Made by a program: the position numbers and the translations under genes. From IMG/VR virus record IMGVR_UViG_3300028610_001612, positions 1 to 43,772 of that record: a DNA stretch of 43,772 nt; one strand, 5' to 3'. The notes beneath the pieces are model-generated. The model worked only from the letters and a program-made list of their open reading frames with translations. It was not told where the DNA came from and did no database searches. The stretch comes from a virus. Position 1 is the first letter of the stretch, and the number at the start of each line of letters is the position of its first letter. Positions 14,718-42,487 of this stretch are shown one piece after another.

Positions 14718-16652
14718 ATGGTAGGCCTTTTAGATTTAAGAGAAGTATATGTTAAAAGGGGTCGAGATTTTATAACTAAATTATTAGATAGCTATGTAAG
14801 TGTATCTGAAAATCTCGATGGATCAAATGTTTATATCCAAAAAAGTGATGGATATGGAAATGTTGGAAACGGAATAGATGTGTTCAAAAGGGATGATAGA
14901 GATCCATTGAATAAGGTTGATAGAGTATTGATGGTATATTATGAAAACATGATAAACCTTTTCAGTAATTTGGATAAGAGTATATTAAATCAAATACCTT
15001 CTGATTGGAGATTTGGATTTCAATATTTTGTAAGTACATCTCCAGCTAACATCAAATATGATCAAATACCAAAAAATAATTTGGTAATAACTCACATACT
15101 TGTCAAAAATAAAAGCAATAAAAATATAAAGATAATAGATGATTTTAAGACATTAAAGTTTTGGGCTGATATGTTTGATATAGATGGTCCACCGATATTT
15201 TTTACGGGTTATCTTAGAGAAAAACAGAAAGCAAAAATTTTGGATTATTTGGATACTCCTCTTGAAGCTTTGAAGGAAATGTTTGGAACAGATTCATTCA
15301 CAAAATATTTTTTACAGATAATAAATCCATCCTTAAAGAAAACATTTTTGAATGTTACAACTGAAAAACCCATAGATTCTATAGTATTTAAATTTCAGAC
15401 GGGCGATGGGGTATATTCTGCAAAATTTATAGATCCAATAATAATGTTTTCACATGCTAAGGAACCTAAAAAACCAGATGATACATATTCTATAATACTT
15501 TTAGATATATTAGAATATTTGACAAAATATCCTGAAAAATTGAATGTTGTTTTATCTAAAAGAAAACCAGATGAAAGATATTTAGAATTTATATCAAGTA
15601 TATTTAATGATTATGTTGAAGAAAATGCTTCAAAATATGAAAATATAGTTATTAATGTTCCAAGATTTGCAAAAAGAAAAGAATTTAACATAAATATAGA
15701 TTTAATATCTAACAATAAAACTAAAAAAATATTACAGAATGATATTTATAAAAATTTGTTTAAGATATTTGTATCATCGTTAAGAAAACTTCGAAGAAGA
15801 TCCAGTGATATTTTGACTCCACAAATAATTAAAAACATAAACGGTATAGTTCTTAAGATTAAAAAAATAACTGAGGTATCAGAAGTAAATGAGTTTAAAA
15901 CATTCAAAGAATACCTTAGTATTAAAGAACAAAACGAATTCTTGTATGAAAAAGAGGAAATCGAATATAAAGAACCTTTTGTAGAAGAAGTAAAATCTAA
16001 AATAAAAATAGTAGATTTAGAGAAAAAGGTATTGAATAAAAAGGAAGAACTAAAAGAAAAAGAAAAGGTTGCAATTGTTGATGGATATTTTCATCCTATA
16101 ACAAAATTTCATATCAATTACCTTAAAAGGGTACATATAAAAGCTAAAAAACCAATAGTATTAGCAATAATAGAAAAATCAAGTAAACAAAGGGGTTATA
16201 TCAAACCTGAAATATTAAAAAAGATGTTGGATGAAACTATTAAAAATGTAGATTTTATTTGTGATTATAAAATGTGTGATAATTCTTTGAATATTAAAAA
16301 GACATATGAAAAGGTTGCTGAAAAATACATACCAACTTCTGTATATACAGTGTTTCAAAGAATGAATGGTTATATGGCAGAAGTATACGGTAATAAATAT
16401 TTTAATAAGAAAGGATTTATTGTTCAAAATATAGATGAACGTGATAATGGAGATATAAGATCAAAGATGGCAATTGATACAGTTTTTATAGATGATATAG
16501 AAGGATTTAAAAATTTTACTCCTGAATATTTACATGGAATTTATAAAGAACTTAAAGAATCAACTGTTACTTTTGATGTTGAAACAATAGAGAAATTAAA
16601 AAAATGGCACAAGGTCGTTAAAGGAAGAAAAAAAGACAAACAACACAAATGA
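14718..16652 (+). CDS. Ligase-like and HxGH-type nucleotidyltransferase fusion
   Basis: 644 residues, two enzyme-like parts. The N-terminal 300 residues resemble a covalent nucleotidyltransferase (RNA/DNA ligase) fold: SENLDGSNVYIQ near residue 30 sits where ligase motif I (E-K-x-D-G) is expected, WRFGFQYF near 98, and DSIVFKF near 220 in the place of motif IV. However, Asn-32 replaces the catalytic lysine. A basic linker follows. From about residue 450, VAIVDGYFHPITKFHINYLK has the G-x-F-x-P-x-T-x-x-H signature of the NMN/cytidylyl-transferase superfamily, and NGDIRSKMA near 580 fits its second motif. It could act on NAD or RNA ends. It belongs to the late cassette and its stop overlaps the transglycosylase start. 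Confidence 0.6.
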   Translation: MVGLLDLREVYVKRGRDFITKLLDSYVSVSENLDGSNVYIQKSDGYGNVGNGIDVFKRDDRDPLNKVDRVLMVYYENMINLFSNLDKSILNQIPSDWRFGFQYFVSTSPANIKYDQIPKNNLVITHILVKNKSNKNIKIIDDFKTLKFWADMFDIDGPPIFFTGYLREKQKAKILDYLDTPLEALKEMFGTDSFTKYFLQIINPSLKKTFLNVTTEKPIDSIVFKFQTGDGVYSAKFIDPIIMFSHAKEPKKPDDTYSIILLDILEYLTKYPEKLNVVLSKRKPDERYLEFISSIFNDYVEENASKYENIVINVPRFAKRKEFNINIDLISNNKTKKILQNDIYKNLFKIFVSSLRKLRRRSSDILTPQIIKNINGIVLKIKKITEVSEVNEFKTFKEYLSIKEQNEFLYEKEEIEYKEPFVEEVKSKIKIVDLEKKVLNKKEELKEKEKVAIVDGYFHPITKFHINYLKRVHIKAKKPIVLAIIEKSSKQRGYIKPEILKKMLDETIKNVDFICDYKMCDNSLNIKKTYEKVAEKYIPTSVYTVFQRMNGYMAEVYGNKYFNKKGFIVQNIDERDNGDIRSKMAIDTVFIDDIEGFKNFTPEYLHGIYKELKESTVTFDVETIEKLKKWHKVVKGRKKDKQHK

Positions 16653-17650
16653 AATATCTATTAGAACATAATGAATATGTAGAGCAATCATTTTTAAATG
16701 AAGCTATCATAAATGAATCCTTAAAAGATGTTTATGATCATTTGAAGGTTGCGTATAAAATAGGTATTCGTGACAGAGGATCTTTGATGATACTTATAAA
16801 ATTTATTTTACACAAAAAAATGAAAGCTTCAAAGCTTAAAAAGTTTTTTGCAACAAAAAAAGATGATCCTAAGTTTAAAAAAGTTTTAAAAGATATAGGA
16901 CACTTAGAACTTGGTAAAGCTATAGATGATTTATTGGGTAAAACTAAAACTGAAAAGCAACAACATATTGTATTTAAAGCTATATTGACATATCTTATAG
17001 TTATGATATTGGTATTAAAACCAGATTTTATAGGTTTTGAAAAACAAGATTTAGATCATGTTGATAAGGATTTAGTTATAATGGTGAATGATATAGTTAG
17101 AGAGAAAACTGTTGATAAAATGAAAACAGTATCAACGAAAGAAATTAAAATTAATTTAGAAAAATCTATTAAATACATTGATACATTACCAATAGGAACT
17201 AAAAAGTTTTTGGATTATTTAGCATCTAGAGAATCTACTAATTTATGGGATACAAGTAATATTTATGGATATATTGGAAAATATCAAATGGGTGAAGCTG
17301 CTTTGTCTGATGTAGGTAGAAAAATAACAATAAAAGATTTTATAAAGAATCCAAGTATATGGCCAGAAAATGAACAGGATAAGGATGTTGTAAAATGGAT
17401 GAAACTTAATAAAAGAAGATTGAAATCATATATTAAAATATATGATGGTACAATAATAGATAGTATTAAAATAACTGAATCTGGAATATTGGCTGCTGCT
17501 CATTTAGCAGGAGCAAAAGGTGTTAAAAGATATTTAGATAATAATGGATTACCAGATAAAAAAGGTATAACAGATACTATCGATAAAAATGGTACAAAAC
17601 TTTCAGATTATATGAGAGATTTTGCAAATTATGAAATAGATTTAAAATAA
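16649..17650 (+). CDS. Capsid-targeted lytic transglycosylase
   Basis: 333 residues. The N-terminus MKYLLEHNEY matches the shared Phe/Tyr-10 signature and is followed by FLNEA and INES, possible prohead protease sites. Residues about 20-190 are helical and basic with one hydrophobic segment (AILTYLIVMILVLK). From about 185 the lysozyme-like domain begins: ASRESTNLWDTSN supplies the catalytic Glu region, then GYIGKYQMGEAAL, SGILAAAHLAGAKGVKRYL and NGTKLSDYM. This is the form of goose-type/SLT phage muramidases, which cleave peptidoglycan. The N-terminal signature plus a late transcript suggest it is packaged and ejected to open the host wall, rather than acting as the lysis enzyme. The latter remains possible because no other endolysin lies in the window. 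Confidence 0.75.
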   Translation: MKYLLEHNEYVEQSFLNEAIINESLKDVYDHLKVAYKIGIRDRGSLMILIKFILHKKMKASKLKKFFATKKDDPKFKKVLKDIGHLELGKAIDDLLGKTKTEKQQHIVFKAILTYLIVMILVLKPDFIGFEKQDLDHVDKDLVIMVNDIVREKTVDKMKTVSTKEIKINLEKSIKYIDTLPIGTKKFLDYLASRESTNLWDTSNIYGYIGKYQMGEAALSDVGRKITIKDFIKNPSIWPENEQDKDVVKWMKLNKRRLKSYIKIYDGTIIDSIKITESGILAAAHLAGAKGVKRYLDNNGLPDKKGITDTIDKNGTKLSDYMRDFANYEIDLK

Positions 17651-17659
17651 ATATATTAG

Positions 17660-17953
17660 ATGAAACATATTAAATCAATAAATGAATTTTCTCCTTTAAA
17701 TATTTCACTTTCAGAAAATGAATATGAAACATTGTTAAAGGGTGATGTTGTTGAAGTAAGCATATCTAAACCTGGAAGTGATACGTTTAGAATATCACTG
17801 AAACCAAATTCTAATGCAACTATCATATTAAGTAGAAAAGAATTTATCGATTTATCTAATGGTAGAATTGTAGATAAAGGTAATATTAATTTAGCTTTAC
17901 AGGACATTGGTTTAGATAGAATTAAAATGTTAAGAAAAAAATATAAAGTATAA
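17660..17953 (+). CDS. Small protein with capsid-targeting-like N-terminus
   Basis: 97 residues. It begins MKHIKSINEF (Phe at position 10) followed by LSEN, a hydrophobic-x-Glu site. The rest looks like a small beta-rich domain (DVVEVSISKPGSDTFRISLK) and a basic C-terminal helix (DRIKMLRKKYKV). It sits 9 nt after the transglycosylase gene and abuts the next gene. Probable minor internal head protein. No family recognised. Confidence 0.55.
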   Translation: MKHIKSINEFSPLNISLSENEYETLLKGDVVEVSISKPGSDTFRISLKPNSNATIILSRKEFIDLSNGRIVDKGNINLALQDIGLDRIKMLRKKYKV

Positions 17954-18196
17954 ATGGATTATTTATTAGAATATGATGAATTTATGAATGAAAATGTAGC
18001 TACAACGATATTAAACTTGAATTTTAAAATTGAAAAAAAAGGTGGTAAACACGTACTTAAAAGAGATAAAGTTTTCAAAAAACATGGAATAGAATATATT
18101 GGACATTTAAAAACTTTAAATCTTGCAAGTAAGGATATAAAGGTACAAAAGGATGTGTTAAAAGATCTTTTAGCGATTGATTTGAGTAAAAATTGA
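17954..18196 (+). CDS. Small protein with capsid-targeting-like N-terminus
   Basis: 80 residues. It begins MDYLLEYDEF (Phe at position 10) followed by MNEN, a likely protease site. The body is basic (KIEKKGGKHVLKRDKVFKKH) with a helical end. Its ATG follows directly on the stop codon of the previous gene, so the two are probably translated together. By inference a packaged, perhaps DNA-binding protein. Confidence 0.55.
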   Translation: MDYLLEYDEFMNENVATTILNLNFKIEKKGGKHVLKRDKVFKKHGIEYIGHLKTLNLASKDIKVQKDVLKDLLAIDLSKN

Positions 18197-18631: not shown

Positions 18632-19171
18632 ATGGAATATGTAATGACATTCGAAGAATTCGAAGAAAAACTAAGAGAAGACGAAGCTATGAATGAATCT
18701 CATAGCCCTGGAGATAAAGTAAGTACTCCTAAAGGAAACGGTACCATTATAGAATGGGATGAAGAAAAAGAAGCACATAAAGTACAACTTGATGAAGGTG
18801 AAGATAAGTTTGAATTTTTTAAAGATGATGAATTAACTCCAGTAGCTGAGGAATATAAACCATTTGAATTGGGAGCAACAGTTGAAACTGAAAAAGGAAA
18901 TGGTGAAGTTGTTTCTTTTGATGAAATAGAAAAAGTTTATAAGATTCAATTATCAGAAGGAAATGTCGAAGATTTTCCAGCAGATGATGTAAAAGAATTT
19001 GTAAATGAATCACATTTGGAACCAGGATGTAAAGTAACTACTCCTAAAGGAGCTGGTCAAGTTATTTCATGGAATGATATTAAAGAAGAATATACTGTTC
19101 AATTAGATGACGGTGGAGATCCTGAACAATTTAAAGATGCAGATATAACAAAAATCGCAGTAAATCCGTAA
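18632..19171 (+). CDS. Triple SH3/KOW-like repeat protein, capsid-targeting-like N-terminus
   Basis: 179 residues from ATG 18632. It begins MEYVMTFEEF (Phe at position 10), then AMNES, a good hydrophobic-x-Glu site. Three tandem repeats of about 50 residues follow, each of the form G-x-x-V-x-T-P-K-G-x-G-x-V then YxVQL-x-x-G and an acidic D-x-x-x: PGDKVSTPKGNGTIIEW, LGATVETEKGNGEVVSF, PGCKVTTPKGAGQVISW. This is the layout of small beta-barrel SH3/KOW or Tudor-like domains, which bind proteins or nucleic acid. Very acidic overall. A terminator follows 30 nt later, closing the late cassette. Confidence 0.6.
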   Translation: MEYVMTFEEFEEKLREDEAMNESHSPGDKVSTPKGNGTIIEWDEEKEAHKVQLDEGEDKFEFFKDDELTPVAEEYKPFELGATVETEKGNGEVVSFDEIEKVYKIQLSEGNVEDFPADDVKEFVNESHLEPGCKVTTPKGAGQVISWNDIKEEYTVQLDDGGDPEQFKDADITKIAVNP

Positions 19172-19286: not shown

Positions 19287-19460
19287 ATGAAGACAATTCA
19301 AAAAAAATCAAGTATAAAAAGGGTCTCAAATGAAGATGCTGATAAGCTTGTAAAAAATGATGGTTGGATGTACGTACCCAAATCAGTGTGGAAAACACAA
19401 AGTAGGGATCTTACCCCAAAGAAAGAAAAAACTAAGAAAATTAAAAAAATTAATCAATAA
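19287..19460 (+). CDS. Small conserved phage protein with GW-YVPKSxWK motif
   Basis: 57 residues, in a different frame from its neighbours. SIKRVSNEDADKLVKNDGW then MYVPKSVWK follows a form I know from small T4-like phage proteins (R-V-x-x-x-x-A-x-x-L-V-x-x-G-W-x-Y-x-x-K-x-x-W-K). The C-terminus is Lys-rich (KKEKTKKIKKINQ). The ATG lies 23 nt after the -10 box of P4 and is its first gene. The stop precedes the dUTPase ATG by 16 nt. Function unknown; the motif makes it a real gene despite its size. Confidence 0.65.
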   Translation: MKTIQKKSSIKRVSNEDADKLVKNDGWMYVPKSVWKTQSRDLTPKKEKTKKIKKINQ

Positions 19461-19476
19461 AAAATTAAATTTAAGT

Positions 19477-20049
19477 ATGAAAATATCTAAAATTAGGGAT
19501 GTAAAAACTCCTAACAGGGGAACTGCTAACAGTGCAGGTATCGATTTTTATGTTCCAACATTTAACGAACAGTTTGTAAAAGATTTTAATTCTAAAAATC
19601 CAGGAATAGAATTTAAAATTGATCTTTTAGAAAGAAAATTCACATTACAACCAAAAAGAAGAGTTCTTATACCATCTGGTATAAAAGTTAATTTAACAAC
19701 AGTTAATAAGTTAAAACAATTTGGAAACATGGGACAACCTTTAATGGATTTTAATCATCAAATAAATGGTATAGCTCTTATTGCATTTAACAAATCTGGT
19801 ATATCAACCAAAAAGGGTGTAGATATTCTAGCATGTGTTGTTGATGAAGATTATCAGGGTGAAGTTCATCTAAGTTTATTGAATACAGGTTATGAACCAA
19901 TAGATTTACATGAAGGTGATAAGGTTGTTCAATTCATATTGATTCCAGTAATATACGATTACATTGATGTAGTAGATGAAATTGATTTATATGAAAGTAA
20001 AAGTGAAAGAGGTCCATCAGGATTTGGTGAAGGAACAGGAAATAATTAA
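19477..20049 (+). CDS. dut: dUTPase
   Basis: 190 residues from ATG 19477; an upstream in-frame start overlaps the small gene before it and was rejected. All five trimeric dUTPase motifs can be traced: I AGIDFYVP, II NKSG in place of the usual RSS, III VVDEDYQGE with the catalytic Asp and Tyr, IV GDKVVQFIL, V RGPSGFGEGTG. About 40 residues are inserted between motifs I and II (VKDFNSKNPGIEFKIDLLER). It hydrolyses dUTP to dUMP, keeping uracil out of DNA and feeding dTMP synthesis. Expressed with polymerase and reductase. Confidence 0.88.
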   Translation: MKISKIRDVKTPNRGTANSAGIDFYVPTFNEQFVKDFNSKNPGIEFKIDLLERKFTLQPKRRVLIPSGIKVNLTTVNKLKQFGNMGQPLMDFNHQINGIALIAFNKSGISTKKGVDILACVVDEDYQGEVHLSLLNTGYEPIDLHEGDKVVQFILIPVIYDYIDVVDEIDLYESKSERGPSGFGEGTGNN

Positions 20050-25801: not shown

Positions 25802-25840
25802 AAACTTTATCTAGTCATTCAAATATATATTTTAAATAAT
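25802..25840 (+). promoter_or_regulatory. Promoter region of the ATP-grasp gene, mixed features
   Basis: AAAC at 25802-25805 is followed after 17-18 nt by an AT alternation (ATATATATTTTAAATAA) lacking a clean TATAAT. TATATA starts 24 nt before the ATG at 25848, the distance typical of the late class. It could be either class or both; late use would fit the capsid-targeting-like N-terminus of the gene product. Confidence 0.4.
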
Positions 25841-25847
25841 CTATTAC

Positions 25848-26825
25848 ATGAAGTATATCAAACTTCTAGAAAAATTTCTTAATGACGATAAAGTTCAATG
25901 GGTAAAAATACATAAAGTTGGTTCTAAAACAGAAAGTAAAAAGGTTGATGCTTTAACAGATCTGGCAAAGAACAAATTGTTCAATATGTTTTTTATGAAT
26001 CCAGAACTGATGGAACGAACTAAAAAGAAAAAATTAGATCATACTGTTCCAACATTAAGATACGGTGGTTCCAACAAAGATGTCATTAAATATATAGAAG
26101 ATAATAAATTAGATAAATCAACTGTATATAATTGGAATACTGATGCTATAAATTTAAGTAGTGATAAAAAACTATGGCATCAAAAACTTGAGGGTAAAAA
26201 TTACATTCCTAAAACAGTTTATGATAAAAAAGATTTAAGTAAACTAAAATTTCCAATAATAGCTAAACCTTCAATAGGACACAGTGGTATAGGAATCAAG
26301 AAATTTGAAACGATTGAAGAAGCTAACAAAGATAAAGGTACGTTTGATCTTTATAGTGAGTGTATAGATTTTATATCTGAATATAGAATTATGTTTATAA
26401 AGGATAATCCCATTGTTCTTTATGAAAGAATAGTAAATAAGAAATATAATAAAACCATAGAAACAAAGGGTCTTAAAGAGGAAGTTAATTTCATATACAT
26501 ACAACAGAATATGGATAAGACACCTTTTATGGATCAAATAAAAGACATACAACAGGATTTCAGAAAATTGATTGAATTGGATTGTTATTCCTTGGATTTT
26601 TTTGTTGATAAAAAGGATAAGGTATGGATGATAGAATCAAATTCAAATAGTGGATTAGGTGCTAATAGTTTGGCATGTGTCTATAAAGGAATGTATGAAG
26701 ATTTTTATGGTAAGAAACCACCAAAAACAAAAATGGATATTGTTAATAAGATTATTCGTGAATACGCTGATGAAATGAAGAAAATGTATAGCGAAGAATA
26801 TAAGGAAACTAAATATCCACAATAA
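25848..26825 (+). CDS. ATP-grasp enzyme with capsid-targeting-like N-terminus
   Basis: 325 residues. The N-terminus MKYIKLLEKF has Phe at position 10, as in the other probable packaged proteins. The ATP-grasp fold is seen from about residue 95: KKLWHQKLEGKNYIPKTVY, then FPIIAKPSIGHSGIGIKKF with the ATP-binding lysine and glycine-rich loop near 138-152, SEYRIMFI near 178, and DFFVDKKDKVWMIESNSNSG near 245-265 with the metal-binding Asp, Glu and Asn. Such enzymes join a carboxylate to an amine through an acyl phosphate. The substrate cannot be told: peptide or protein modification (RimK-like) and small-molecule ligation are options. A dUTPase-fold gene follows. Confidence 0.75.
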   Translation: MKYIKLLEKFLNDDKVQWVKIHKVGSKTESKKVDALTDLAKNKLFNMFFMNPELMERTKKKKLDHTVPTLRYGGSNKDVIKYIEDNKLDKSTVYNWNTDAINLSSDKKLWHQKLEGKNYIPKTVYDKKDLSKLKFPIIAKPSIGHSGIGIKKFETIEEANKDKGTFDLYSECIDFISEYRIMFIKDNPIVLYERIVNKKYNKTIETKGLKEEVNFIYIQQNMDKTPFMDQIKDIQQDFRKLIELDCYSLDFFVDKKDKVWMIESNSNSGLGANSLACVYKGMYEDFYGKKPPKTKMDIVNKIIREYADEMKKMYSEEYKETKYPQ

Positions 26826-26877: not shown

Positions 26878-27282
26878 ATGGAAGTAATTGTAAAACAACT
26901 AATGGAAGAAGCAAAGAATCCCGATATAGGTCAAGATAATGTTCTAGAACTAACTTGTACAACAAAAGAAATAGGATATAATTATATAGGTTATGGAACA
27001 GGTTTGGCAATATCGATACCTAAGGGTTATGCTGGTCTACTTTTTCCGATGGATTCAATTAATAGTAGAGATTTAATGACAAAGGACAGTATAGGTGTTA
27101 TACCTAACAATAGTGATGATGAAATAAAGGTGAAATTTTCTATCACAGAATCTGAACTTCCAAATACGTATCAAATTGGTGACAAAATAGCAAGAATGAT
27201 AATAATACCCGTAACAAATTTTAACTTTAAATTTTTAAAAATGCATGAACCGAATGAAACAATGCACTTTATTCGTATATAA
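26878..27282 (+). CDS. Degenerate dUTPase-fold protein
   Basis: 134 residues. It keeps the dUTPase/dCTP-deaminase core: YGTGLAISIPKGYAGLLFP corresponds to the strand before motif II, SINSRDL to motif II, and GDKIARMIIIPV to motif IV. Motif III reads GVIPNNSDDEIKV, lacking the catalytic Asp and Tyr, and the glycine-rich motif V is absent. It is unlikely to be a normal dUTPase; it may bind nucleotide, regulate, or partner the dUTPase encoded at 19.5 kb. An AAAGGAGG sequence lies 36-43 nt before its ATG, too far to act as a usual ribosome site. Its last bases overlap promoter P5. Confidence 0.7.
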   Translation: MEVIVKQLMEEAKNPDIGQDNVLELTCTTKEIGYNYIGYGTGLAISIPKGYAGLLFPMDSINSRDLMTKDSIGVIPNNSDDEIKVKFSITESELPNTYQIGDKIARMIIIPVTNFNFKFLKMHEPNETMHFIRI

Positions 27283-40681: not shown

Positions 40682-41176
40682 ATGAATAATTTATTAGAAT
40701 CTTTTGAAGATTTTGAATTAAATGAATTTTTTGGAGGAACTAGACCGATAATGGGAAAAAGTTATCTTGTAACAAAAAAGGTTGCAGTGGAGGATGTGTC
40801 TTCAGGTGAAACTATATATATCAAACCTGGTGAACTTATCGAAAATATCAAGGACATAGATAAGAAAAAAGGATTTATTTATTTTGATAGAAAGACTACA
40901 GCAGGAGAAACTATTAAATATGCGATTCGTTACAAGGATTTTTTGAAATCGGTTTCTGAAGAGGTTGAATTTCCTAGAGACATTATACTTGATAATTTAT
41001 CTACTATGATTGTTTATCTTAAAAATCTTAAAATAAAGATTGATTCCAAAGAAATGAAGGGACAGAAAAAAAGAATACATAGTGATTTAAAGAAAAAGAC
41101 AGATGCTGAAATATCTAATCTGATTGCAAAGTTTAGACAGTTTAATGTTATCTTTAGCGCAATAGAAAAAGAATAA
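40682..41176 (+). CDS. Small virion protein with capsid-targeting-like N-terminus
   Basis: 164 residues. It begins MNNLLESFEDF, the shared signature shifted by one residue (Phe at 8 and 11), followed by LNEF. A beta-rich middle (ETIYIKPGELIENIK, KKGFIYFDRKT) and a basic helical C-terminus (KEMKGQKKRIHSDLKKKTD) follow. The ATG is directly after the previous stop. Inferred internal head protein; no family recognised. Confidence 0.55.
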   Translation: MNNLLESFEDFELNEFFGGTRPIMGKSYLVTKKVAVEDVSSGETIYIKPGELIENIKDIDKKKGFIYFDRKTTAGETIKYAIRYKDFLKSVSEEVEFPRDIILDNLSTMIVYLKNLKIKIDSKEMKGQKKRIHSDLKKKTDAEISNLIAKFRQFNVIFSAIEKE

Positions 41177-41192
41177 AATAAAATAATATAAT

Positions 41193-41798
41193 ATGAAAAA
41201 TTTATTAAACTTTGAAAGGTTCCATGAAGTAAGGGACTTTGAAATAACAGAAGAAATTTTAGAAACAGCTTTTAATAAAGCTTTTGAAAGTGAAAATGAT
41301 TATTTGTTTGATTGGATGGAAAACATTTTAATTGAAGAAGAAGCTATTGATACATATCTTGAATCATTAAGTGAAGACGAACTTACTAAACTTGAAGAAA
41401 TGAATGATGAAGAATTGTTAGAAGCTACAACTCAAGCTACAAGAGATACTAAAAAACTTGCAAATTTTGCAAAAGATAAAAAAGTAAAACCTGGTAAAAA
41501 GATTGCTGATATAAGAAAGAAAGATATAAAGGGAAAATGGATTAAAAGAAAAATAAAAAATATTCCAAAAGGTGCTGCTAAAGTTGTAAAGAAAAACAAA
41601 AAACTTGCAATAGCTGCAGGTGCAGTAGGTGCAGCAGCAACAGCTGCAGCAGTTTTGAAAAAGAAAAAAAATGAAGCAATAGATTTTGATTTTGATACAA
41701 AAAGATATGTTTTTGAAATGTATAATTTAGATATTGAAGTTAATGTTGATAAAGATTTTAAAGTGTTCTTAGATGAACAGATAAATGATATAGATTAA
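41193..41798 (+). CDS. Probable internal head protein with basic Ala-rich helix
   Basis: 201 residues with the same layout as the 6.3 kb protein: MKNLLNFERF at the start (Phe at position 10), an acidic stretch (ESLSEDELTKLEEMNDEELL), a Lys-rich segment (KRKIKNIPKGAAKVVKKNKK), then a small-residue hydrophobic helix (LAIAAGAVGAAATAAAVL) and KKKKNEA, and a C-terminal domain. This repeated acidic-basic-Ala/Gly helix design suggests paralogues or convergent packaged proteins that bind DNA and insert into membrane on ejection. Function inferred. Confidence 0.55.
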   Translation: MKNLLNFERFHEVRDFEITEEILETAFNKAFESENDYLFDWMENILIEEEAIDTYLESLSEDELTKLEEMNDEELLEATTQATRDTKKLANFAKDKKVKPGKKIADIRKKDIKGKWIKRKIKNIPKGAAKVVKKNKKLAIAAGAVGAAATAAAVLKKKKNEAIDFDFDTKRYVFEMYNLDIEVNVDKDFKVFLDEQINDID

Positions 41799-42074: not shown

Positions 42075-42097
42075 CTAAGTTAATGAAAATAAATTAT

Positions 42098-42487
42098 ATG
42101 AGTAGTACTATTAATATTAAAAAAAATAAAAATTATTTAAAAAATAGCGAATTGTTTGCTGAAATCATTCTATCCAAAAAAAATAACGAATTAACTGAAA
42201 GGGCACAAAAAATGCTAATACTTTTAGCAAATAAAGTTTCTACTAAGTTGAAGTATAAAAATCCAGAAGATAGAAAAGATTGCATATCATTTGCATATTT
42301 AGACATTTTGAAGTACTGGAGAGGCTTTGATCCCGCAAAATCTAGCAATGCATTTGCGTATTATACGGAAATGATTAAAAAAGGTTTTGCTAAAGGCTGG
42401 AATCATCTTCATCCTAAAAAGTATGCAGGCACTTTAAGTTTGGATGGTGGTTTAGATGATGGATCCGAAGGTATTTACAGTATCTAA
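42098..42487 (+). CDS. 55: Late transcription sigma factor gp55-type
   Basis: 129 residues from the ATG giving MSSTINIKKN; T4 gp55 also begins with MSE. An upstream in-frame ATG would add five residues but lies where transcription should begin. YLKNSELFAEIIL aligns with the T4 start. DCISFAYLDILKYWRGFDPA and NAFAYYTEMIKKGFAKGWNH match the sigma region 2-like core (T4 HAYITQACFNAFVQRIKK). It directs RNA polymerase to late promoters. At 129 against 185 residues, it lacks most of the T4 C-terminal part, including the clamp-binding SLDFLYE end. It is driven by an early-class promoter, as expected for a late regulator. Confidence 0.8.
   Translation: MSSTINIKKNKNYLKNSELFAEIILSKKNNELTERAQKMLILLANKVSTKLKYKNPEDRKDCISFAYLDILKYWRGFDPAKSSNAFAYYTEMIKKGFAKGWNHLHPKKYAGTLSLDGGLDDGSEGIYSI

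Follow-up and report, generated by a model that had tools for sequence, protein, structure and literature searches.

A predicted ATP-grasp ligase with a capsid-targeting-like N-terminus, probable head cargo of a T4-like giant phage

Could a phage load a ligase into its head together with its DNA? The question is raised by a gene in IMG/VR virus record IMGVR_UViG_3300028610_001612, of which we analysed the 43,772 nucleotides (a virus fragment of 43.8 kb, GC 27.6%), hereafter the window. The gene is an intact open reading frame (ORF) on the plus strand. A first-pass annotation, made from the letters alone, had proposed an ATP-grasp ligase that may be packaged in the head. After comparison with relatives we consider it probable that its product is a catalytically competent ATP-grasp ligase of a T4-like giant phage, expressed late, packaged in the head as cargo and injected with the genome. 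The gene, its domains and its motifs map as follows.

25848..26825, plus strand: ATP-grasp ligase gene, 325 aa, ATG at 25848 and stop ending at 26825 (ORF, Pfam/NCBIfam, alignment, model)
25893..26138, plus strand: pre-ATP-grasp region, residues about 16–97 (AlphaFold secondary structure, first strand at residue 16; limits approximate)
26139..26708, plus strand: ATP-grasp domain, residues about 98–287 (Pfam and NCBIfam matches within residues 98–276, model)
26262..26294, plus strand: AKPSIGHSGIG (residues 139–149), with the Gly-rich loop and the lysine that binds ATP, K140 (no change at K140 in 38 homologs)
26379..26387, plus strand: ExR motif (E178, R180) of the peptide-bond-forming ATP-grasp assemblage (invariant in 38 homologs; meaning per PMC4431377)
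26595..26642, plus strand: metal ligands D250 (in LDFFVD), E263 and N265 (in MIESNSN) (D250 and E263 invariant, N265 mostly kept)

Is the protein an enzyme? Single-protein searches with it returned the same phage and one ortholog, in the uncultured phage LR756500.1, and nothing else. A nine-sequence profile reached 122 relatives in IMG/VR; 80 loci were fetched, with 38 representatives at 80% identity. The family was absent from the bacterial and archaeal genomes scanned. An AlphaFold model from the 38 homologs (pLDDT 91, pTM 0.89) has the ATP-grasp fold, and the comparison with RimK and peptide ligases that the first-pass annotation had proposed was productive: Foldseek matched DdlB, ArgX/LysX, RimK and the peptide ligase PsnB at E of ∼1e-11 to 1e-13. 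PDB sequence searches gave no informative match. The motifs that had been called complete were all located. Seven residues are invariant in the 38 homologs (K107, K140, E178, R180, R194, D250 and E263), while N265 is mostly N and S in some; K140 is the sole invariant lysine in its region, K107 sitting in the preceding helix. A loss of ATP-binding residues among relatives, which had been raised as an objection, is thus not seen. The ExR motif marks an ATP-grasp assemblage making peptide-like bonds (PMC4431377), and because it is accompanied by the predicted fold and the conserved catalytic residues, the protein is likely an active carboxylate-amine (peptide-bond-type) ligase.

Dala_Dala_lig_C was the sole Pfam family over its cut-off (1.6e-6), with weak matches to R2K_2, YheCD and RimK. 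We rejected equivalence with RimK (NCBIfam TIGR00768, 29.8 against a cut-off of 143.4 bits), with Ddl (TIGR01205, 25.2 against 245.65 bits) and with R2K (Pfam R2K_2, 22.1 against 26.2 bits). Among relatives, ortholog L002 passes the R2K_2 cut-off (29.3 bits) and L121 passes that of R2K_3.

What points to the head is the N-terminus, which resembles a capsid-targeting sequence (CTS). T4 internal proteins start MKTYQEFIAE/A, the slash marking the end of the tag. The T4 rules have been described, the targeting residues being the aromatics at positions 4 and 7 (PMC9026906).

25848..25886, plus strand: capsid-targeting-like N-terminus MKYIKLLEKFLND, residues 1–13, core LEKFLND at residues 7–13 (CTS profile, conservation, low pLDDT)

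We scored N-termini with a CTS profile; its training set comprised 61 other CTS-tagged proteins from the clade and left out ATP-grasp proteins altogether. Residues 2–13 of the window copy reached 17.5 bits, the best among all window ORFs. This score was reached by 0/17,777 internal protein windows and by 80/1,618 other ORF N-termini, and 64 of those 80 themselves carry a CTS core. The likeness to internal head proteins claimed at first pass therefore holds, with two atypical positions: Leu replaces the first aromatic (the second is Phe), and Asp replaces the P1 Glu. Neither the window copy (FLND) nor the LR756500.1 copy (KIND) fits the protease site [LI]xE. In T4, Asp at CTS position 10 (P1) blocks processing while still allowing targeting (PMC9026906). 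Because Asp stands for the P1 Glu, the window tag is probably not trimmed; by analogy with T4 the protein would be targeted and keep its tag.

Conservation and structure can be set side by side here. Residues 7–13 have a conservation of 2.20 (mean BLOSUM62, 38 homologs) versus 0.32 for residues 31–60 and 2.41 for the metal-binding region, yet residues 1–10 lie outside the fold at a pLDDT of ∼49. An N-terminus that is conserved but unstructured looks like a targeting signal. Nine positions (M1, K2, I4, K5, E8, F10, N12, D13 and D14) are common to the window copy and the LR756500.1 ortholog, which is 46% identical overall, begins MKFIKPYEEFKINDD and has an interrupted core (YEEFKIND). Counting the ortholog, 34 ORFs of LR756500.1 start with an N-terminus of the MKYIKEYEEFLLE type. 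Looser CTS-like N-termini, such as MEYVMTFEEF and MDYLLEYDEFMNE, were noted elsewhere in the window, at 18632-19171, 17954-18196, 17660-17953, 16649-17650, 40682-41176 and 41193-41798; ORF 18632 has a late-type upstream motif too.

Most homologs keep a CTS ending in a protease site [LIV]xE, down to 26–30% identity (examples are MKDYRQFLFE/A, MKNYRHFLNE/D, MKYIKLFEQFINE/A, MKKVSTYNDFIVE/A and MIIKDFQTFLNE/R). The core [FYLWH]xx[FYW][LIVM]xE falls in the first 30 residues of 25 of the 38 representatives, and one more (L160) has it from a GTG start. In the alignment the first aromatic is kept in 35/38, the second in 38/38 and the P1 Glu in 27/38, relatives L206, L212 and L214 also having lost the Glu. 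The positions set by the T4 rules are those conserved in the homologs. A stricter core, [FY]xx[FY][LIV]xE, occurs at the N-terminus of 35/66 ATP-grasp ORFs versus 97/1618 others (p = 2e-23, a value that overstates independence since the homologs are related), and in 1.6% of equally sized internal windows. Other CTS genes make up 33/426 neighbours of ATP-grasp genes versus 1/221 near gp46. Two relatives, L179 and L180, have two tandem ATP-grasp copies, each tagged, and some carry an additional domain that separates the tag from the ligase, flanked by LKE/S or ISE/S sites. A domain SDAPDAEGRFKDLSIKDLAAWLIKTR, or close variants of it, forms a CTS protein of its own in some cases and in others is fused in between tag and ATP-grasp domain (L117:9080-10498, L120:9059-10276, L146:3796-4101 and L179:8712-9239). 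The generalization that every T4-like phage ATP-grasp protein has such an N-terminus fails, as the RimK homologs of cyanophages S-RIM8 and S-RIM32 are without the tag.

Machinery that would read such a tag is found in related phages. A gp21-type S77 protease and gp23 were present in 13/14 related records. Inspection of four complete proteins showed the protease running on into a scaffold whose tandem repeats (for example DYAEYLSENLDKNISYSDYLAENV) have the form Y-x-x-Y-L-x-E, a shape like that of the tag and protease site; the gp23 N-terminal site is LINE/A or LINE/S. The [LIV]xE rule is therefore anchored in head proteins. Protease-scaffold fusions were located at L123:1444-3249, L124:1441-3246, L128:1438-3258 and, in LR756500.1, L008:26725-28623 (minus strand). 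With a profile of the scaffold repeats only, the ATP-grasp family scores higher (p = 1e-7). The idea that the tag mimics the scaffold repeat was set aside as a resemblance in shape, a lead without proof, since this profile misses the window copy.

Is the gene expressed at the right time? Two features bear on this.

25822..25829, plus strand: late-promoter-like motif AATATATA, 26 nt before the ATG (motif statistics)
42083..42487, plus strand: gp55-like late sigma factor (phrog_234 late sigma factor, 3.6e-12)

The first-pass annotation had noted a resemblance to a late promoter at 24 nt; the late-type motif was borne out, the distance was not. The motif, [AG]ATATATA, resembles the T4 late element TATAAATA. 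It stands 20–35 nt before 7 window starts, that of the ATP-grasp gene included, versus 0.26 expected (p = 2e-9). In related loci it lies upstream of 34/60 ATP-grasp genes, 35/118 other CTS genes and 152/1413 other genes, and before 0/30 gp46 and 0/7 clamp genes. One of five gp23 genes examined had it; the motif is thus not universal for late genes. The gp55-like sigma factor is its likely reader. The motif supports late expression of the ATP-grasp gene and argues against early-only expression, which had been named as an objection.

A second ATP-grasp family bears a similar tag. At the same locus, the contig behind L122 encodes two tagged RimK-like ATP-grasp proteins (L122:9102-10586 and L122:10582-11553). 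The larger has a C-terminal DTG-containing region that is a candidate RimB-like domain, and has more than 300 relatives in IMG/VR. The tag is present in 64/74 distinct N-termini of this family (L221-L300), for example MKVPSFNEFISE/AV, and the RimK-like protein of pelagiphage Mosig EXVC030M (L216:2998-4383) begins MQVQPFKNYLEE/A. The two families are related at the profile level over the catalytic core, and are therefore distant members of one superfamily. A remote homolog of the second family, YerA41_066 of Yersinia phage YerA41, bears the annotation 'structural protein'. The particle proteome of that phage comprises 63 proteins by LC-MS/MS, many enzymes among them (PMC7354516). The annotation no more than hints that enzymes of this kind are carried in virions. 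Other CTS-tagged proteins of the clade include cytidylyltransferase-like proteins, candidates for a packaged enzyme (L143:3444-4022, PF01467; L151:3841-4422; L156:3835-4419), and a protein with a PAP2 phosphatase domain (L154:8407-9276; PF01569, 1.8e-7).

Head packaging, first put forward as a possibility, has thus gained from the CTS kept in most of the 38 homologs, the matching machinery in related phages, the late-type motif and the second tagged family. Judged from sequence, packaging of the ATP-grasp family is well supported, and that of the window copy is likely.

The surroundings of the gene bear on the kind of phage. Its gp46 is 59% identical to that of LR756500.1 (462 kb), followed by ∼30% to Lak megaphages, placing the window in a T4-like phage. 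UvsX-, DnaB-like helicase-, DNA polymerase- and RNR-like genes are present on the fragment, as are head-closure and DNA-end-protector genes and the gp55-like sigma gene. A 68 kb IMG/VR contig is identical to the window over the stretch compared. In several relatives thyA and a phosphoesterase-like gene flank the ATP-grasp gene, with a sigma-like gene after the phosphoesterase-like one; thyA was named by Pfam, the other two by our reading of the sequence. Homologs were absent within 10 kb of gp46 or clamp genes in ∼90 related loci, lying elsewhere in those genomes. The window has two separate dUTPase-like ORFs, at 19357-20049 and 26878-27282, and the second follows the ATP-grasp gene immediately. 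ORF 28428-29606 matches solely the C-terminal part of T4-type DNA polymerase, which suggests a split polymerase.

We propose the following course of events. The ATP-grasp gene would be transcribed late, and the N-terminal CTS would dock the ligase in the scaffold core of the prohead, where it would remain during DNA packaging. In most relatives, cleavage after [LIV]xE by the gp21-type protease would remove the tag, whereas the window copy (FLND) would probably keep it. The ligase would then be injected with the genome and, more speculatively, join an amino acid or a peptide to a protein of the host (or an early one of the phage) or to a small molecule. Ejection is suggested by analogy with T4 Alt and IPI, and on the same analogy host takeover is speculative.

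Several observations weigh against this course. No virion proteomics for this clade was found. The protease, scaffold and gp23 of the window phage were not on its available contigs, which are fragments, and with the scaffold-repeat-only profile 84% of other ORF N-termini score at least as high as the window copy. The gene is surrounded by nucleotide-metabolism and replication genes, unlike its place beside thyA in several relatives. YerA41_066 has no clear CTS and belongs to another ATP-grasp subfamily, and the enzymes in the YerA41 particle proteome could be carry-over. Lastly, the Leu and Asp substitutions could mean that the window tag is decaying. On that last account the protein would be an ordinary cytoplasmic ligase, late but unpackaged, and it would fit both the interrupted core in LR756500.1 and the loss of Glu in the three relatives named above, as well as a gene that adjoins a dUTPase and not thyA. 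We think it unlikely: the 17.5 bits are still above 95% of other N-termini, the nine N-terminal residues are shared with an ortholog of only 46% identity, and Asp at P1 in T4 stops trimming, not targeting (PMC9026906).

Two further explanations concern what the enzyme does rather than whether the tag works. It might be targeted to the prohead and act there, or just before, on scaffold, capsid or other packaged proteins, in maturation or tagging, with ejection incidental. A CTS puts the ligase in the scaffold core with the protease and other cargo, and late expression and the fusion forms with LKE/S and ISE/S sites between domains fit as well; but ATP and free substrate should be scarce once the DNA is packed, and the T4 proteins of known function with a CTS-like propeptide, Alt and IPI, act after injection (PMC9026906; PMC3012670), so that we hold this action in the prohead to be improbable. 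Very improbable, in our judgement, is a small-molecule ligase that makes a cell-wall precursor, a peptide or a nucleotide-linked metabolite and modifies no protein. D-Ala-D-Ala ligase and LysX/ArgX are among the closest solved folds, and Dala_Dala_lig_C stands alone over the Pfam cut-off, but the Ddl score is far below its own NCBIfam cut-off, no biosynthetic partner genes were seen beside the gene, and an enzyme packaged in few copies should be better suited to a protein target than to making metabolites in bulk. A late, packaged and injected ligase thus remains the reading we favor.

How does this compare with known systems? Like the window family, T4 internal proteins and Alt combine an N-terminal aromatic-x-x-aromatic-aliphatic-x-E tag, an S77 prohead protease and cargo of varied function. 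Alt itself is packaged enzyme cargo, an ADP-ribosyltransferase acting on RNA polymerase (PMC9026906). Unlike in T4, the cargo here is an ATP-grasp ligase, the tag of the clade is usually 12–13 residues (MKxIKxFExFxxE) versus 10, a single protein combines protease and scaffold, and Asp occupies the cleavage position of the window copy. The R2K clade (CDC123-like, phage R2K.2) likewise comprises phage-encoded ATP-grasp proteins with an ExR motif; the LR756500.1 ortholog is over the R2K_2 cut-off and the window protein below. In the parts of the sources that we consulted, the role proposed for R2K proteins is protein modification during conflict between phage and host (PMC4431377; PMC7824862), and head packaging is not among the proposals made there. 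RimK, the ribosomal protein S6 glutamate ligase, and RimBK, its hybrid with the RimB protease, share the ATP-grasp fold, and their profile link is to the second, CTS-tagged phage family. Such hybrids are known in bacteria (PMC11957791); unlike them, the window protein belongs to a different subfamily and is without a protease-like domain. D-alanine-D-alanine ligase has the fold and Pfam C-terminal domain in common with the window protein, which differs in its scores far below Ddl cut-offs, its phage context, its tag and the lack of visible cell-wall partners. Phage ATP-grasp enzymes have been reported, with proposals of host-protein modification (PMC7824862); we found no report in PubMed Central (open-access literature) of an ATP-grasp protein with a capsid-targeting sequence.

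More tentatively, with the odds in our view slightly against it, ATP-grasp peptide ligases may form a general class of virion-delivered enzyme, with two or more distant families, from several lineages of T4-like phages, being injected to tag host proteins (translation machinery, for example) with amino acids before phage gene expression. Of the packaged T4-type enzymes, Alt is the one whose target is well described; loading a protein or peptide ligase into the head would bring new chemistry to time zero of infection. The Asp variant in the window would be a natural case of the T4 observation that targeting is separable from trimming. The CTS together with its protease site would also offer a rule for predicting which proteins hundreds of uncultured phages carry in their virions.
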